IMG/VR virus record: IMGVR_UViG_3300046028_003137
Location: 1 to 25,407 of that record
Strand: one strand, 5' to 3'
Length of the DNA stretch: 25,407 nucleotides
DNA from: a virus
The notes under the pieces: model-generated
What the model was told of the DNA's origin: nothing
Seen by the model: only the letters and a program-made list of their open reading frames with translations
Database searches by the model: none
Made by a program: the position numbers and the translations under genes
Shown: positions 7,122 to 23,888 of the stretch, one piece after another
How positions within the stretch are numbered: position 1 is the stretch's first letter
How the letters are laid out: each line of letters begins with the position of its first letter

Positions 7122-9729
7122 CTATTAAAATTGAATTTTGTAAATTAGAATTAACACCACCACTTAACACATTAACGTCTGCATCAACATCCAAACCACC
7201 ACTTAAAATCGTATATGTTGGATAGTAAACTCCATTAATGTAGCTCACGTTTGATTCTGTTACTACTATGTTTGAAGTATTAATTACCGTCACATTTGAT
7301 ACGTTTTCTCCGATAGTTACATTAGATGCGTTTACAAGCACGTTCGATGCGCTTTCTGGTATGAATATACCTTCGCCAATTGCAATGCTGTTATAGCCTA
7401 AATTAATGCTATTCTCAGCTAAATTAAGAGACGTTGTATTGACTGGCTGTTGTATATTTTCGCCCGTTGGTATGGATGGGTTGCTGTATAGAAATTCCGA
7501 TGTTGGTACAAACAAATCTGTGTTTAATATTTTGATTAACTCAACCTTTGTCGATTGTACTTCGTATGGATTGTAATCAATTATCTTGTTAACTATGTAG
7601 TAAGCATTGTCAATGAAGTATTTTTTTCTAAAGCTAAACAACTTAATATCTAAAGGAGATAGCCAAAGATAAGCTGTCATCACTTTTGAATTTTTACTCG
7701 TTACATTTTGAATAAAGTTTTTATGGTAACGATTGTAAAGGTTGTTATTTGTGAATTTAGAATTTACAAACGTATAATAACTCTCTTTTAATATTCCGAA
7801 ATTCAAATCATACGTTGGATTTTGTGGGTCATCTACGTGTCCACAGTAACCATAATTAGTCATTAATTGGTCACTTAATCCTGTTTGCTTAAATGTCCAT
7901 GTTGCCGTTGTTGGCTTAACACCGCCAGCGTACAATAAGCGAATGTTAGGTACAATATTAGCCCCTGTTTCGTCCTTATAAATCTTTGGTATAGCAATAC
8001 CTAAACCATAGTTAGCCACGTTTGGAGTGGGAGAAAAAATCAACTCGTTAACCTTATCCTCTTTTTTGAAGTCATTATCAATGTCTATTTTTTCTGTTCC
8101 GAAATTTTCAGCGTGTTTGTTTAGATACTTTTGATTATAGAAATCTTTATCCTCTTTATATTGATAGATATAGCGTTTGCCGTCTACCATAGAAATCGGG
8201 TTAATCTCGATTTGTTTATCTAAATCTATCTTGTTGGCCCAATCAATCGTGCCATTATTGAAATAGTCATTGTAGTTTTCAATGATTATATTCTTAGGAT
8301 TGTTTTTATCAAAGTCCAAATACAAATTGAATGCTTGCATAACTGACTTAACGAAGTCACGCTGTTTGATTTGTTTAGGAATAGCTACGTTAACAGTCAT
8401 CGTATTACCCTCGATAACCTCTTTTCTTGTTGGTAAACCATAGAATGAAGAACCCAACGCTCCGCTATCTAATTCCATTAATATAGTACCAGCTGAGTCA
8501 TCATCAACACCGATTTGAACTCCGTTAATATCAAAGTATCTCACACCTCGAATAGCACTATTTACATAAAACTGTCTAGTCCATGATGCATTAACTCTAA
8601 ATCTATCATTTGCTGTAAATAATTGTTCGCCCGTTGCAACTTCGTTTACATAGGTGTAATCAGTGTTAACATTGAATGTATTACCAATAGAACCATTCCA
8701 ATAGCTATTATTGTTAGTTAATGTAAACCATGAAGCACCGCTATTTGATGACTTCTCTAAGCTATTTAAAGTAGTAAGTTGTATAATAGTCGCATAAGCA
8801 ACCGCCGTATCTGTATGCGTAATTCTTATCTTATATTTTAAACGTGATACTAAATTATAATAACCACTACTACCAAGTGTTACCGATGTTCCGTTAATCT
8901 GACCTCCATTATCAAAGAATGGTGCGTTTGTTTCATCAGTCCAGTTAACGATTTGACTTGCATTGACATTAATAGTCGAATCAGTTAACAAACCGCCATA
9001 CCATTGCAACAAATCTAACTGTGCTTGAGTTAATTCTAATTTATTAATATTCGGCTCTACGATTAGCTTTTTAAACTCAATACTATCTAAGAATGCACTA
9101 GTCCAAGTATAGCCATATTCACTAAATATTTTCTCTAAATATTCTCTTACAAATAATTGCGGAAAAAACTCCTTAACGCTAAATACAGTATCACTATTTG
9201 TCCCCAAACCACGTTGAACAAAGCCATAGTAATAACCCTTACCCATTCCTACGTTGGTAGTCACACCACTAACTTTGCAAAGGTTGGACCAACTATCAAT
9301 TTGATTAGCTCGGCTGTATGTGTGGTCGTATTCGCTAAAATCTAACTCTTCAAGATATTTATCTCCAATATCAACAAACAAGTTACCCTCATTGCCTATA
9401 ATAGAACATTCATAAACGATATTGTTGTCACTTGACTTAGAAACCTTCAATAATTGCAACGCACCAACAAGAACCTGGGTTTCATCAACAAAGTATTTAG
9501 CCTCTATTTTTTTGTTAGGGTCAAACGTTTGTAAGTCAATATTAACCTCAAAGATATTTTCAAATAGCTTGTTTAATTTACTATTTCCGTAAAGAGTAAT
9601 AGTCTTTGTAAACGATGCGTTACGTTTGTCAGGCTCTCTCAAATCAGCTTGGACAAAGTTTGTCGAAATCGGTATGTTATTTACAATAGCATAGTTTTCA
9701 GTACCTATCTGTAGTCGTGTGTTTATCAT
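7111..9729 (-). CDS. Large tail tip / baseplate protein, 872 aa
   Basis: The N-terminal region (about 1-100) reads MINTRLQIGTENYAIVNN, then REPDKRNASFTKTITLYG and a long beta-rich part. I recall a very similar start in large tail proteins of Bacteroidota siphophages that sit in the tail-tip position. The middle (about 100-740) is mixed beta with many aromatic residues. From about 775 to the end the sequence changes to short Asn/Ser/Val-rich repeats (NLAENSINLGYNSIAIGEG, then SNVLVNASNVTIGENVSNV). These look like a beta-helix or YadA-head-like trimeric stalk. This suggests a tail-tip protein with a built-in fibre-like C-terminus. The gene overlaps its neighbours by 4 bp upstream and 11 bp downstream. 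Confidence 0.6.
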   Translation of the reverse strand: MINTRLQIGTENYAIVNNIPISTNFVQADLREPDKRNASFTKTITLYGNSKLNKLFENIFEVNIDLQTFDPNKKIEAKYFVDETQVLVGALQLLKVSKSSDNNIVYECSIIGNEGNLFVDIGDKYLEELDFSEYDHTYSRANQIDSWSNLCKVSGVTTNVGMGKGYYYGFVQRGLGTNSDTVFSVKEFFPQLFVREYLEKIFSEYGYTWTSAFLDSIEFKKLIVEPNINKLELTQAQLDLLQWYGGLLTDSTINVNASQIVNWTDETNAPFFDNGGQINGTSVTLGSSGYYNLVSRLKYKIRITHTDTAVAYATIIQLTTLNSLEKSSNSGASWFTLTNNNSYWNGSIGNTFNVNTDYTYVNEVATGEQLFTANDRFRVNASWTRQFYVNSAIRGVRYFDINGVQIGVDDDSAGTILMELDSGALGSSFYGLPTRKEVIEGNTMTVNVAIPKQIKQRDFVKSVMQAFNLYLDFDKNNPKNIIIENYNDYFNNGTIDWANKIDLDKQIEINPISMVDGKRYIYQYKEDKDFYNQKYLNKHAENFGTEKIDIDNDFKKEDKVNELIFSPTPNVANYGLGIAIPKIYKDETGANIVPNIRLLYAGGVKPTTATWTFKQTGLSDQLMTNYGYCGHVDDPQNPTYDLNFGILKESYYTFVNSKFTNNNLYNRYHKNFIQNVTSKNSKVMTAYLWLSPLDIKLFSFRKKYFIDNAYYIVNKIIDYNPYEVQSTKVELIKILNTDLFVPTSEFLYSNPSIPTGENIQQPVNTTSLNLAENSINLGYNSIAIGEGIFIPESASNVLVNASNVTIGENVSNVTVINTSNIVVTESNVSYINGVYYPTYTILSGGLDVDADVNVLSGGVNSNLQNSILIDGN

Positions 9730-10877
9730 AGCCCTCTTTGTCTAGTTTCTTGCGTGTTATATTCGATGTTAACAGTGTAATTGAAAAGCTTATCACTATT
9801 ATGCTTTTTAAACTCATAAGTTGTATCAGTTATGGTTACCGGTATGTAATTAGTCCCATCATGTTGCCATACGATAGGGCTGTCAAATAGTTCTTGCAAC
9901 GCTTCGTTTTGGCTTTCACTTATCCAGTCGCTGATTAATGTATTTGTGTACGTAGTTACATTAGAAACCTCATGTACTTCACGTTCGTATCTGTTTGATA
10001 CCATAATGCCACTTATTACATTGCCCTTGCCTAAACGTACATTAGACGTTTTCTTTGACATTTTCTTTGATGAAGCTAAACTAAATTGTTTGTATAAGAT
10101 ACGGCCACTACGTGATAAGTAGTATAAACGTGTTACATCGTACTTTGAGCAAATGTTTGTAACTGTATAAGTGTAATCAAACAAAGGAACATCAAACCCT
10201 GTATTATTGATAAATGACCATGTAATGACATCGCCAACAGCCAACGTATGGCCTAAATCTAATAATGTTTGATAACCTAAATTCAAAGCATATATTTTAT
10301 TCTCATTATATGATGCCATTGTGATAGTATCATAAAGACTACCATTAATAGACACATCTACATAATAAGTCCCTGTCCCTGTTGGTGTTTTCGGAAACCA
10401 ATGCACCCAAATATCCGTTGTTGGTGTTACTATGCTATCAGCTGGGTTAAGTTGTTTTGGTAATCCTAAAATATTTGTATTGCAAAAAGTATTTGGTAAA
10501 TAATCTTCGAAATCAGCTTCATTCAAACAACCGTCAAAGGCTATATAAGTAAATGATGACGGTGTTTTCAAACTACCCGAGTAATACTCGGTAACTGTCA
10601 ATGTAATTGATACCGCCTTATTTGTAGCTTCTACAATGGTTACATCATTTGGATTAAAGTAATGTTCAATGAAATTTTTAGCTTTCTCTTTAGCATTATA
10701 AACAAAACGACCGTTTGGGTCAGGAAGAACTTTCTCGGTTAACGTAATGCTATTACAAGTGAAATCTATTTTATAATAGAAATCACTTATAGCCGTTTGA
10801 TTAGATGATCCGATAAACCATTGGTCATTATATGCGGGTGTTTTACTTAGTGGGTATTGCGTTATTGTTAGTGCCAT
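9726..10877 (-). CDS. Tail structural protein, 383 aa
   Basis: A beta-rich protein starting MALTITQYPLSKTPAYNDQW, with no transmembrane segments. It has motifs such as CNSITLTEKVLPDPNGRFVY (about 42-61), FDGCLNEADFEDYLPNTF and a C-terminal ISEWISES-like part (about 318-327, SDWISESQNEALQELFDSP). The latter resembles the 'LISDWISesqAeWLqelf.SP' segment I recall from Bacteroidota phage tail proteins. It lies in an uninterrupted chain with the large tail-tip gene (4 bp overlap) and the gp10-like gene (1 bp overlap). A distal tail or tail-tip hub role is inferred from position; the precise subunit is unknown. Confidence 0.55.
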   Translation of the reverse strand: MALTITQYPLSKTPAYNDQWFIGSSNQTAISDFYYKIDFTCNSITLTEKVLPDPNGRFVYNAKEKAKNFIEHYFNPNDVTIVEATNKAVSITLTVTEYYSGSLKTPSSFTYIAFDGCLNEADFEDYLPNTFCNTNILGLPKQLNPADSIVTPTTDIWVHWFPKTPTGTGTYYVDVSINGSLYDTITMASYNENKIYALNLGYQTLLDLGHTLAVGDVITWSFINNTGFDVPLFDYTYTVTNICSKYDVTRLYYLSRSGRILYKQFSLASSKKMSKKTSNVRLGKGNVISGIMVSNRYEREVHEVSNVTTYTNTLISDWISESQNEALQELFDSPIVWQHDGTNYIPVTITDTTYEFKKHNSDKLFNYTVNIEYNTQETRQRGL

Positions 10878-14176: not shown

Positions 14177-14698
14177 CTAATAAATGTTTACGTTGCTAAC
14201 TATTTTGTTTATGAGTTTCTTTCTGTTTAATCGTATTGTATGATAAGACATATCTAGATCCTTTGATAATTCCTTAAGTGTTTTATCATTAGTTGATTCA
14301 AATAATACATAAACATCCGTCTCTTTAATCGTGCTATCTTTTTGTATGTAGTTAATCACCTTATCGAAATCTTCGTCTATCTTATGGTTGTATTCGCTAT
14401 GCGTTATGTTGGCTCCGTCGAATTGTCCGAATTTTGATGACATTTCAAACAACACGTTATCTTTACCATTCAAGTTGTAGTTTCGAGCCTGACTATTTGA
14501 TTTACCAAACATGACAGTAAATGCAAAAGCCTTTAAGTTGTTTATTCGGTCAAACTTTTCGTCGGGCATCTCCAACAAATAAATGAATGTTTCTTGAAGC
14601 AAATCATTATAAATGTCTCTATTATTGCAGAGCTTTCTAGCGTTGTTAGTTAACGCCGTATCTTTGAATAATATTTCGATTTGCTTGTATTTATTCAT
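14177..14698 (-). CDS. Sigma-70-family-like factor, 173 aa
   Basis: Two helical domains are separated by a linker of about 35 residues. The N-terminal one has NRDIYNDLLQETFIYLLEMPDEKF (26-49) and NNLKAFAFTVMFGKSNSQ (53-70), which follow the region 2 pattern 'a.DllQetfi.l.e....f..i.n..af...i..n'. The C-terminal one has KTLKELSKDLDMSYHTIRLN (139-158) followed by RKKLINKI, a region 4 helix-turn-helix. This size and layout is that of ECF-like sigma factors. Its place just before the late region suggests that it may direct host RNA polymerase to late promoters, but this is inference; it could also be a diverged DNA-binding protein. A structured leader (14709-14819) ends 10 bp before its start codon. 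Confidence 0.65.
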   Translation of the reverse strand: MNKYKQIEILFKDTALTNNARKLCNNRDIYNDLLQETFIYLLEMPDEKFDRINNLKAFAFTVMFGKSNSQARNYNLNGKDNVLFEMSSKFGQFDGANITHSEYNHKIDEDFDKVINYIQKDSTIKETDVYVLFESTNDKTLKELSKDLDMSYHTIRLNRKKLINKIVSNVNIY

Positions 14699-14708
14699 TC
14701 TGTTTAGT

Positions 14709-14819
14709 AGTCAGGTAAAGGTTTAACACGCTTCCGCTCTACAGCGTTAATCAATGTTTTGTTTAATGTGAGAATCGCTTAACTCATTACAGTTTTTTGT
14801 GCTATTCCTTTACCTAACT
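14709..14819 (-). ncRNA. Structured leader RNA before the sigma-like gene (candidate)
   Basis: Minus-strand arms AGTTAGGTAAAGG (14807-14819 on plus) and CCTTTACCTGACT (14709-14721) form a 13-bp closing stem with one G-U wobble, enclosing about 85 nt. Inside are two hairpins, TGAG/CTCA with a 10-nt loop (14769-14786) and ACGCT/AGCGT with a 10-nt loop (14728-14747), giving a three-way junction. The C-A mismatch on the plus strand becomes G-U only in the minus RNA. It fills the whole gap between the nuclease stop and the sigma-like start. Confidence 0.55.
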
Positions 14820-14821
14820 AA

Positions 14822-18106: not shown

Positions 18107-18188
18107 AAAAACCTCTAAACTTTGAGCTGGAAGTCTCGCAGAATAGAGGTCTTTAGTTTAATGTTTTTGTTAGTTGCTTCCAGACAAC
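18107..18188 (-). ncRNA. Kissing-loop leader RNA, copy A (before the replication operon)
   Basis: On the minus strand, hairpin 1 is GTTG-TCTGGAAG-CAAC (18173-18188). After a linker with AAAACATTAA comes a terminator-like stem ACCTCTA/TAGAGGT (18111-18117 with 18144-18150) ending in TTTTT. Within its large loop an inner GAG/CTC stem presents ACTTCCAG (18127-18134). Loop 1 CTGGAAG is fully complementary to CTTCCAG (7 bp). The same design recurs in two other leaders with unrelated sequence. Confidence 0.65.
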
Positions 18189-18193
18189 AGATG

Positions 18194-18201
18194 CAAATAT
18201 A
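18194..18201 (-). promoter_or_regulatory. Promoter -7 box TATATTTG of the replication operon
   Basis: The minus strand reads TATATTTG, an exact TAnnTTTG match, 5 bp before hairpin 1 of leader A. Transcription would then start in or next to hairpin 1. The -33 region is weak (GGTTTT), so activation may be needed. Confidence 0.6.
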
Positions 18202-18246: not shown

Positions 18247-18270
18247 CAGAGTATCATTGATGATACTCTG
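18247..18270. repeat. Perfect 10-bp inverted repeat in the main intergenic gap
   Basis: CAGAGTATCA-TTGA-TGATACTCTG. It lies about 45 bp upstream of the TATATTTG box and about 40 bp past the stop of the 161-aa gene. On the minus strand it is followed by TATTAAATAG, which is a poor terminator tail, so a protein-binding dyad (operator or origin element) is as likely as a terminator. Confidence 0.6.
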
Positions 18271-18280
18271 ATTTTTACTT

Positions 18281-18306
18281 TACACTACTTTACACTACTT
18301 TACACT
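18281..18306. repeat. 10-bp direct repeats TACACTACTT
   Basis: TACACTACTT occurs at 18281-18290 and 18291-18300, followed by TACACT (18301-18306); a partial copy (TTTACTT) precedes. The period equals one helical turn. Together with the adjacent dyad and AT-rich DNA this resembles iterons or an operator array. It sits directly after the stop codon of the 161-aa gene. Confidence 0.6.
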
Positions 18307-22339: not shown

Positions 22340-22350
22340 AATGTTAAATA

Positions 22351-22431
22351 AAAAAGCCCTTGATTAGATGTGAGAGAGTCTAACCAAAGGCTTTAATGTT
22401 TAATGTTTTACGTTTGTCGCTCTCACCCGAC
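22351..22431 (-). ncRNA. Kissing-loop leader RNA, copy B (before the ERF operon)
   Basis: Minus strand: hairpin 1 GTCG-GGTGAGAG-CGAC (22416-22431), linker with AAAACATTAA, then a 16-bp terminator stem (22353-22368 with 22379-22394) followed by six T residues. Two C-A mismatches on plus become G-U wobbles in the minus RNA. The terminator loop CTCTCTCACA contains CTCTCAC, the exact complement of GTGAGAG in loop 1 (7 bp). This is the clearest copy of the family. Confidence 0.75.
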
Positions 22432-22435
22432 GTTG

Positions 22436-22443
22436 CAAATTTA
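22436..22443 (-). promoter_or_regulatory. Promoter -7 box TAAATTTG of the ERF operon
   Basis: Exact TAnnTTTG match on the minus strand, 4 bp before hairpin 1 of leader B. A TTG (22466-22468 on plus as CAA) lies 22 nt upstream and could serve as the -33 element. The box is just beyond the stop codon of the 92-aa gene. Confidence 0.7.
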
Positions 22444-22479
22444 CAAATAATTATTTTAAAATGGACAATTTTTTCTCAT

Positions 22480-22758
22480 TTAGTGGCTTTCGTTTGGTGA
22501 TGGTAAATCTGCCGAAAATCTTTTTGCACAATCTACATATCCACGATTATATTCTCTTTCTCTAACAGCTTCTAATATTTCAGCTAAATCGTCTAAAGTA
22601 TCATCAACGGTACATCCAAATTTTCCTCTTGTTTGTAATTCTTTTTCTAATAGTTCTCTCATTTTATTTAGGTTATTTAATTTATCATTTAATTCTTTTC
22701 TCATTAATTTATGTAATTTTTCAGAAGCAACTTGTATGTAAAATGTTTTATCTATCAA
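22480..22758 (-). CDS. Small helical protein, up to 92 aa
   Basis: The frame can start at a TTG (22758) that directly abuts the 3' arm of the structured RNA at 22759-22867, or at the ATG at 22704 (74 aa, MRKELNDKLNNLNKMRELLE). The sequence is a charged helical protein with EKLHKLMRKELNDKLNNLNK and a C-terminal DDTLDDLAEILEAVREREYN. It is the last gene of the unit that starts at leader C, and it ends about 36 bp upstream of the next promoter box. No family was recognised. I slightly favour the ATG start because the TTG start has no room for a ribosome site outside the stem. Confidence 0.6.
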   Translation of the reverse strand: MIDKTFYIQVASEKLHKLMRKELNDKLNNLNKMRELLEKELQTRGKFGCTVDDTLDDLAEILEAVREREYNRGYVDCAKRFSADLPSPNESH

Positions 22759-22867
22759 GGTATAAAAAGAAATGTGGCTTGCACCGCCCGTAGCAGGGTT
22801 TGTTCTGTTGCGTCACAGAATTGACAGAGGTGCAACTTATTCCCCCATACCACACTTCTTTTATACC
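22759..22867 (-). ncRNA. GC-rich structured RNA with a long closing stem (candidate)
   Basis: Arms of 19 and 18 nt (22759-22777 and 22850-22867) form a closing stem with one bulged base and one G-U wobble that exists only in minus-strand RNA. Inside lie a 7-bp stem TTGCACC/GGTGCAA (22829-22835 with 22779-22785), a 6-bp hairpin TTCTGT-GACGCA-ACAGAA (22803-22820) and a small CCC-TGCTAC-GGG hairpin (22787-22798). The core is clearly richer in G and C than its AT-rich surroundings, which is a typical sign of functional RNA. It is not a tRNA. Confidence 0.65.
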
Positions 22868-22888
22868 CATATCGTTAGGTGCAATAAT

Positions 22889-23188
22889 TTAATCTTTTAC
22901 AAAAATTCCGTTAATTGTTTTGCCTTTTCTTTCTTTAATTACGTTGTATGCTAATTCTATACATTCAAAAAAATCATACCCTAATTGATTTGATAATATT
23001 ATCATCACGATTCCTATATCACCTAATGCATCTTTTATTTCAATTTCATTTTTTGAAATCATAGAGTTATACAATTCATTAGTTTCTTCTAATAATTTTC
23101 CAAATTGTTTAAGAGCGTTTTCTTTATGACATAAATTCCTATCATTTGCCCATTCTAATACAATTTTTGTTATTTCATTTTTTTCCAT
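22889..23188 (-). CDS. MazG-like nucleotide pyrophosphohydrolase, 99 aa
   Basis: The sequence fits a short MazG-like all-alpha NTP pyrophosphatase: VLEWANDRNLCHKENALKQF (10-29), GKLLEETNELYNSM with the metal-binding EExxE (Glu34, Glu35, Glu38), then EIEIKDALGDIGIVMIILSN with DALGD (53-57, Asp57). It ends with AYNVIKERKGKTINGIFVKD. Such phage enzymes may clear (p)ppGpp or non-canonical dNTPs, or keep up the nucleotide supply during infection. The start overlaps the HNH endonuclease stop by 14 bp. The gene is followed by the structured RNA at 22759-22867. Confidence 0.88.
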   Translation of the reverse strand: MEKNEITKIVLEWANDRNLCHKENALKQFGKLLEETNELYNSMISKNEIEIKDALGDIGIVMIILSNQLGYDFFECIELAYNVIKERKGKTINGIFVKD

Positions 23189-23735
23189 TGTAATTAATTT
23201 TTTTATGTCTTAATTTAATATTAATCATTTCATTTAAAGTATAATCTTTATTATATCTTAAAAGTAAACAACTATATGATATATTATATTTTTTAGATAA
23301 TTCTTTTAAAGAATATTTTATTCCATTTTCAAAAACATAATTTTTTGTAGCTGAATCTAATGTTTTTATTAATAAATTATTTTTTAAAGCATGTTTCATA
23401 TTTTCAGACCTTGTAATCAATTCTAAATTTTCAATAAAATTATTTTTTTTATTACAGTCTATATGATTTATATCTAATTTATTATTATAATCATTTTTAA
23501 AATTAGAATATACTAATATATGTGCTAAATATCTTTTTCTTATACAATTTTTATAAATATCATAATATATGTACCCATTTCTATTAATACTTTTAGATTG
23601 AATTTTACCTTTAAATAATCTTTTAGTTTTATTTGGATAGATTATATATCTATCTAAACTTTTTAAATTTCCATAATTACTGATTTGATAAAAACCTTCA
23701 TAGTTTTTTACATCTAACCAAATTTCATTTTCCAT
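23175..23735 (-). CDS. NUMOD4 / HNH homing endonuclease, 186 aa
   Basis: From the ATG at 23735 the protein starts MENEIWLDVKNYEGFYQISN, a NUMOD4 DNA-binding motif. The HNH core follows with LAHILVYSNF and DINHIDCNKKNNFIENLELI (His, His, Asp and Asn at residues about 72, 91, 93 and 99 from this start). The end (about 140-175) has an HTH-like NUMOD segment, GIKYSLKELSKKYNISYSCL. An upstream ATG at 23759 falls inside the stem of leader C and is less likely. The gene is markedly more AT-rich than its neighbours, which points to a recent free-standing mobile endonuclease inserted between leader C and the MazG gene. It overlaps the MazG gene by 14 bp. Confidence 0.9.
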   Translation of the reverse strand: MENEIWLDVKNYEGFYQISNYGNLKSLDRYIIYPNKTKRLFKGKIQSKSINRNGYIYYDIYKNCIRKRYLAHILVYSNFKNDYNNKLDINHIDCNKKNNFIENLELITRSENMKHALKNNLLIKTLDSATKNYVFENGIKYSLKELSKKYNISYSCLLLRYNKDYTLNEMINIKLRHKKINYNGKK

Positions 23736-23739
23736 AATT

Positions 23740-23838
23740 AAAATACCAATCCAATACAAAGGCTTATCCGACTGCTAAGTGTTAGCAAATGGCAATGTAA
23801 AGGATTGGATTTAATTAATGTTTTCATGTCGAATAAGC
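23740..23838 (-). ncRNA. Kissing-loop leader RNA, copy C (before the HNH/MazG unit)
   Basis: On the minus strand GCTTATTCGAC (23828-23838) is followed by a linker with AAAACATTAA and a terminator-like stem AATCCAAT/ATTGGATT (23748-23755 with 23804-23811). Its loop holds a 6-bp hairpin (23773-23787) and GTCGGATAAGC (23762-23772). The latter pairs with the 5' segment over 11 positions with one U-G wobble, present only in minus RNA. The tail TATTTTAATT is only partly T-rich, so termination may be weak. Confidence 0.6.
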
Positions 23839-23842
23839 GAAG

Positions 23843-23850
23843 TAAATTTA
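23843..23850 (-). promoter_or_regulatory. Degenerate promoter -7 box of leader C
   Basis: TAAATTTA on the minus strand, one base off TAnnTTTG, placed 4 bp before the 5' pairing segment, which is the same spacing as in copies A and B. Upstream DNA (23850-23888) is nearly pure A and T. No -33 box was found. Confidence 0.4.
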
Positions 23851-23888
23851 ATAAAAAATATTAATATATAAAAATAATTTTTAATATT

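Follow-up and report, generated by a model that had tools for sequence, protein, structure and literature searches.

Leader-peptide attenuators such as trp and tnaC carry a short ORF just upstream of a terminator-like hairpin and running into it. In phage lambda, the nut site is a promoter-proximal element of the nascent RNA located upstream of terminators. The put RNA of phage HK022 is likewise a nascent phage RNA and acts directly on RNA polymerase (PMC9378689). In corrinoid riboswitches, a kissing loop in the expression platform acts together with a terminator (PMC10653944). Homing endonuclease genes of the T4 group are commonly held down by RNA hairpins that cover their ribosome-binding sites (reviewed in PMC2988022).

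The locus described here, leader C, lies on the minus strand of an IMG/VR virus fragment that was analysed over its whole length of 25.4 kb (the window). As in the T4-group cases (mobE of Aeh1, segB, and I-TevI/II/III), an RNA structure is found directly before a phage homing endonuclease gene. However, the T4-group hairpins limit endonuclease expression by sequestering the Shine-Dalgarno sequence, whereas leader C is a pseudoknotted hairpin with a T-rich tail, 7–12 nt before the start codon, which has its own promoter and relatives that also precede replication genes. No Shine-Dalgarno sequence is present within its main stem, P2, which ends 7–12 nt before the start codon. By analogy, the biological purpose of the two may be the same, with a different structure. 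Similar to put and nut, leader C is a promoter-proximal nascent phage RNA upstream of terminators, but the element itself includes the terminator-like hairpin and pairs with its loop, and the pair sequence varies between leaders. Unlike the corrinoid riboswitches, the leaders described here lack an aptamer-sized domain, are about 100 nt long, and use the 5' end of the RNA itself as the partner. C-type leaders share with trp and tnaC a short ORF that runs into a terminator-like hairpin, but differ in having no conserved control codons, a variable ORF end, one lineage devoid of the ORF, and a pseudoknot over the start region. No prior description of such leaders was found in the literature searched, the coverage of which was limited, and the leader structure probably represents a type of gene-control switch that has not been described before.

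Structure of leader C

The TAnnTTTG boxes, the low GC content, and the protein matches in Cellulophaga and Flavobacterium phages assign the window, on sequence features, to a Bacteroidota-type phage. All elements that a first-pass annotation had placed in leader C were recovered at their positions, all on the minus strand. The degenerate -7 box, TAAATTTA (23843..23850), reads TTTA where the consensus TAnnTTTG has TTTG, and is followed after exactly 4 nt by the 5' strand of helix P1 (RNA GCUUAUUCGAC, DNA GCTTATTCGAC; 23828..23838), which is supported by covariation and is probably the 5' end of the leader C RNA. The start site was placed from the known spacing of Bacteroidota promoters, and since P1 begins exactly 4 nt past the box in all 28 aligned leaders of this type, the first nucleotide of P1, or one close to it, is the probable transcription start. 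The related loci L090 and L098 carry the box TATATTTG at a spacing to the leader identical to that in the window.

The 3' strand of P1 (RNA GUCGGAUAAGC, DNA GTCGGATAAGC; 23762..23772), also supported by covariation, lies inside the loop of P2, whose arms CCAAUCC (23802..23808) and GGAUUGG (23746..23752) were identified by folding and comparison. As annotated, the two P1 strands match over 11 nt, with 10 Watson-Crick pairs and one U-G pair in the minus-strand RNA. The top of P2 and then its loop are formed by the conserved block UACAUUGCCA (23790..23799), in which the ACA/UGU pairs covary in the alignment of 28 leaders, followed by P3, a small variable hairpin UGCUAA/UUAGCA predicted by folding within the P2 loop (23773..23789). 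A T-rich tail, UAUUUU (DNA TATTTT; 23740..23745), completes the leader. Because P2 encloses only one strand of P1, leader C is a pseudoknot; the P2 5' arm is located between the two P1 strands, which is the H-type topology with P3 as an extra hairpin in the loop. Leader C has no clear 5' hairpin.

An 11-nt match of this kind arose in six of 4000 dinucleotide shuffles of the 108-nt leader C, and a scan of both strands of the window found no second 11-nt match with the spacing and GC content of leader C. The A-rich linker AAAACATTAA (23815..23824), common to leaders A and B, is present as annotated, but is a weak marker taken alone because the minus strand of the window contains six exact copies of it. 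Of the earlier impression that both the box and the tail are weak, the part concerning the box holds, and the tail TATTTT is of middling strength, perhaps below average. The suggestion that the P1 pair is decaying was not borne out, as the U-G column has U-G in 10 of 28 leaders and C-G in the other 18.

The HNH cassette at the MazG locus

The gene behind leader C (23175..23735, minus) is predicted to encode an HNH homing endonuclease of 186 aa with the Pfam domains NUMOD4 and HNH_3. Both its domain content and the empty sites in related phages are those expected of a free-standing NUMOD4/HNH homing endonuclease. Promoter, leader C, and HNH gene make up a mobile cassette (23180..23888, minus, edges approximate) that is missing from HNH-free relatives. 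Homology to L087–L089 and L091–L093 ends at the stop codon of an 82-aa gene (23889) and restarts within MazG, and in the HNH-free loci L087, L089, and L093, MazG follows the 82–84-aa gene after 14–15 nt, with no leader at this site. These relatives rule out the proposal that the HNH gene invaded an ancestral MazG leader. The same cassette as in the window is found in L082. In L090, a near-identical leader precedes a gene for a different HNH protein with a related N-terminus, at a position upstream of the 84-aa gene, and in L098 a near-identical leader precedes yet another ORF. Since the leader is absent together with the HNH gene and present elsewhere before another HNH gene, leader C belongs to the homing endonuclease cassette. 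The idea that the HNH gene may use the leader promoter agrees with the position of leader C, which is suited to drive this gene.

Relatives and covariation of C-type leaders

Relatives of leader C were gathered by two patterns, TACATTGCCA...CCTTTGTATT and ATGAAA...CATTGCCA...GCCTTT, made up of blocks that exclude the paired strands. The family size given by the viral pattern scan is a lower bound, and most of the loci are metagenomic fragments. The pseudoknot recurs in dozens of related viruses, differently spelled each time. Among the matches listed, P1 of at least 8 bp is present in 73 of 74 viral matches with a -7 box, so that the complementarity is conserved in relatives as the first-pass annotation had expected, compared with one of 24 viral matches without a box and none of five boxed matches in bacterial genomes. 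The conservation of P1 is not a selection effect, because P1 is absent from the pattern by which these 73 boxed matches were found. The alignment comprises 28 diverse leaders, and its representatives were chosen with P1 of at least 8 bp required, which hardly matters because nearly all of the unselected boxed matches satisfy the same threshold.

In this alignment, the nine core pairs of P1 form in 99.2% of cells, seven of the nine show double changes, and all four Watson-Crick pairs are used in columns 7–9. The covariation score of the whole structure is 0.751, against 0.237 ± 0.022 for shuffled alignments, and sliding the pairings gave no more than 0.143. Covariation extends to the top of P2 (ACA/UGU and the pair after it). 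The spacing from box to P1 is 4 nt throughout, and the unpaired blocks UUGCCA, CUUU, and the A-rich linker are conserved. P2 and a T-rich tail lie between promoter and gene in 27 of 29 representatives, which is the layout of a transcription attenuator with an intrinsic terminator, and the T tail is poor in some members (L014, L104). The downstream start codon is located 7–12 nt past P2 in nearly all C-type leaders, and 10 nt past it in the window.

About half of the genes after diverse C-type leaders encode endonucleases (NUMOD4/HNH_3, GIY-YIG, endonuclease VII), and the remaining leaders precede genes for early replication or for DNA modification. Endonucleases thus have no monopoly on the leader, which is also followed by DUF6291, DUF1376/primosomal, replication-initiator, methylase, and helicase genes. 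One phage contig, L102, carries two C-type leaders on opposite strands (8174-8301, plus; 10277-10404, minus) with different P1 sequences, one preceding a NUMOD4/HNH gene and the other an endonuclease VII-like gene.

No C-type match was found in named phages by blastn. A host-borne element was considered and rejected, since in the family to which a Flavobacterium genome belongs, 397 genomes gave two matches, neither with box and P1. E-values of the purpose-built leader model are rough. Rfam 15 gave no match in the window or for the leaders in 22 related loci, and at a relaxed E-value only a chance match to snoR99, far under its threshold, was obtained. Gene timing in Bacteroidota phages is poorly understood, and a covarying leader class outside Rfam provides a concrete handle on it.

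Leaders A and B

The window contains two further leaders on the minus strand, leader A (18107..18201), in which CUGGAAG pairs with CUUCCAG and compensatory changes occur in orthologues, and leader B (22345..22443), in which the loop GGUGAGAG pairs with CUCUCAC in the terminator loop. Both consist of a -7 box and a short hairpin with an 8-nt loop that can pair with the apical loop of a strong terminator, and neither has a leader ORF. Leader C had been described as a third copy of A and B. The general plan is indeed the same, but leader C constitutes a separate family, in which the 5' end of the RNA pairs directly, whereas in A and B a 5' hairpin kisses the terminator loop, a design that is widespread in its own right.

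Kissing-type leaders were sought in the loci examined as a 5' hairpin plus terminator behind a box, without using the complementarity for the choice. A loop-loop match of at least 6 nt occurs at 41 of 170 sites, compared with 4.9 (at most 11) when permuted 200 times. Compensatory changes are seen in the seven orthologues of leader A, both in the kissing helix and in the inner terminator stem, with 100% pairing. Leaders on the same contig shared the pair sequence in none of 10 pairs, compared with 5.6% between contigs, a sample too small to show that each leader of a phage has a private address. The genes after kissing-type leaders include small early genes, ERF and replication genes, and homing endonucleases. 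Two cultured phages carry the type, Cellulophaga phage phi19:1 with its box at 10353 and Flavobacterium phage elemoE with its box at 9325 on the minus strand, and vB_RanS_PJN03 has no convincing case. Below the kissing loop, the terminators often contain an internal loop (e.g., at L008 8803, L036 5882, L057 8725, and L070 10762), such as GAGUAA/CGAAA or AAGUAA/UGAAA, that resembles a bulged-G (sarcin-ricin) module.

The leader ORF

In leader C, an ORF of 29 codons plus stop (MKTLIKSNPLHCHLLTLSSRISLCIGLVF; 23738..23827, minus) begins with an ATG adjoining P1 and stays open through the P2 5' arm. Almost every C-type leader has an ATGAAA start directly after P1, and this also holds for leaders detected without that pattern. 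In frame 0, none of 27 representatives has a stop before the loop, so that the frame is open across the P2 5' arm, compared with 12 of 27 with a stop in frame +2; frame +1 is no control because ATGA itself contains TGA. Thus, with one lineage excepted, an ORF in a selected open frame overlaps the hairpin, as in leader-peptide attenuators.

The encoded peptide is variable. Owing to indels, the conserved TTGCC falls in different frames in different families, which rules out a conserved leader peptide, and the ORF end and stop position vary across families. A 13-residue peptide is encoded by 47 of 73 C-type leaders among the matches listed, mostly of one lineage, and most of these peptides end in TALP before the stop, an ending confined to one lineage. 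Neither conserved control codons nor a stalling peptide was found across families of C-type leaders. In the lineage of L014, L017, L020, and L026, P1 and P2 are kept and the leader start codon is absent. Together with leaders A and B, this lineage rules out the ORF as a universal mechanism; the leader ORF is a common but not obligatory part of C-type leaders.

Proposed mechanism and alternative explanations

We lean slightly towards a cis-acting switch that is read during transcription, with leader C as the beginning of the HNH mRNA, moving with the HNH gene as a cassette. The model builds on the observed covariation of P1 and the P2 top, the cassette linkage, the open frame, and the geometry; termination at P2, repression through P1, and an input from the ribosome would be its presumed steps. 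In this family, the first 9–11 nt of the transcript pair as P1 into the P2 loop, and this pseudoknot would close the leader. With P1 and P2 formed, P2 would stop transcription or mask the start region, and the endonuclease would stay low. Alternatively, a ribosome may load on the leader ORF before the P1 3' strand emerges and cover first the P1 5' strand and next the P2 5' arm, so that the hairpin would be prevented and the gene read. The P1 3' strand is transcribed about 55 nt past the leader start codon, which would give time for such a race.

The arrangement of P1, start codon, P2, and tail suggests these two competing states, a ribosome on the leader versus the pseudoknot. P1 is not a classical antiterminator, because its 3' strand lies in the P2 loop and not in the arms, and P1 and P2 are topologically compatible; for the latter reason, the effect of P1 on P2 cannot be deduced from the anatomy. 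Ribosome gating is not the whole story, since the L014/L017/L020/L026 lineage and leaders A and B have no leader ORF.

A broader and more tentative reading, which we think somewhat more likely to fail than to hold, is that many early promoters in phages of Bacteroidota-type hosts are under an undescribed RNA control. Each would make a leader whose first nucleotides tie a gene-specific knot with the following terminator-like loop, in one of two designs. The outcome would be set by a race of knot formation against ribosome loading (in C-type leaders) or against a shape-reading factor, and homing endonucleases would have captured the pseudoknot type as a mobile on/off element that keeps their cost down. 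By travelling with a regulatory RNA of its own, a homing endonuclease gene would have a simple way to limit its cost at any landing site. The conserved structure is open to base-by-base mutation and rescue, and because the pair sequences vary yet always match, the leaders would be attractive candidates for orthogonal expression switches in Bacteroidota.

The leaders without an ORF also accord with a switch that depends on structure only, which we consider rather unlikely overall. The knot or kissing complex would be recognised by RNA polymerase itself or by another protein, either an antiterminator of the phage or a factor of the host, leading to read-through of P2 in the manner of nut or put, with the ORF being secondary. 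The paired sequences vary freely with the shape kept, the A-rich linker and the UUGCCA and CUUU blocks are conserved as RNA, and a knot recognised by RNA polymerase or by a factor of the phage would fit all leaders equally. The put RNA of HK022 offers a precedent for nascent phage RNA acting on RNA polymerase (PMC9378689). However, such a switch leaves the selected open frame of C-type leaders unexplained and has no candidate factor.

It is improbable that the product is the terminated leader alone, a stable small RNA of about 100 nt acting in trans or as a decoy with its 5' end sheltered in the P2 loop and the gene expressed by leak-through. The probable +1 nucleotide is base-paired and the terminators of leaders A and B are strong, as would be expected of such an RNA, but the position of the start codon just past P2 in nearly all C-type leaders points to control in cis, and P1 sequences differ between leaders, so that a common trans target is absent.

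The weaker tails of C-type P2 hairpins relative to those of leaders A and B, and the poor T tails in L014 and L104, could be taken to mean that P2 is no terminator in vivo and that P1 does no more than protect the HNH mRNA against decay from its 5' end. This explanation appears even less probable, as it does not account for a partner strand that, in each of two unrelated designs, always lies within a terminator-like hairpin loop. That the leader DNA is a homing target or recombination arm of the endonucleases would explain why C-type leaders adjoin many unrelated endonucleases, but it is very improbable given that P1 covariation needs an RNA function, that many C-type leaders have no adjoining endonuclease, and that the empty MazG site has no leader sequence.

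Other structured elements

L082 lacks a segment of about 427 bp that separates MazG from leader B in the window (22457-22883, minus). It comprises an ORF of 92 aa with a TTG start and a GC-rich element, about 130 nt long, whose extended ends are complementary (GGGTATAAAAGAAGTGTGG / CCACATTTCTTTTTATACC), has no Rfam match, and is possibly another inserted structured element. An intergenic long stem, TTAGGTAAAGG...CCTTTACCTGA, is located around AAAACATTGATTAA at 14695-14820 (minus), with no obvious promoter or T tract. Just upstream of the leader A promoter, a strong hairpin, CAGAGTATCATCAATGATACTCTG (18255-18285, minus), is probably the transcript end of the preceding gene. In L070, a viral contig that also has a kissing-type leader, a permuted tmRNA is encoded at 1247-1451 on the plus strand (Rfam RF04321, 55.8 bits).
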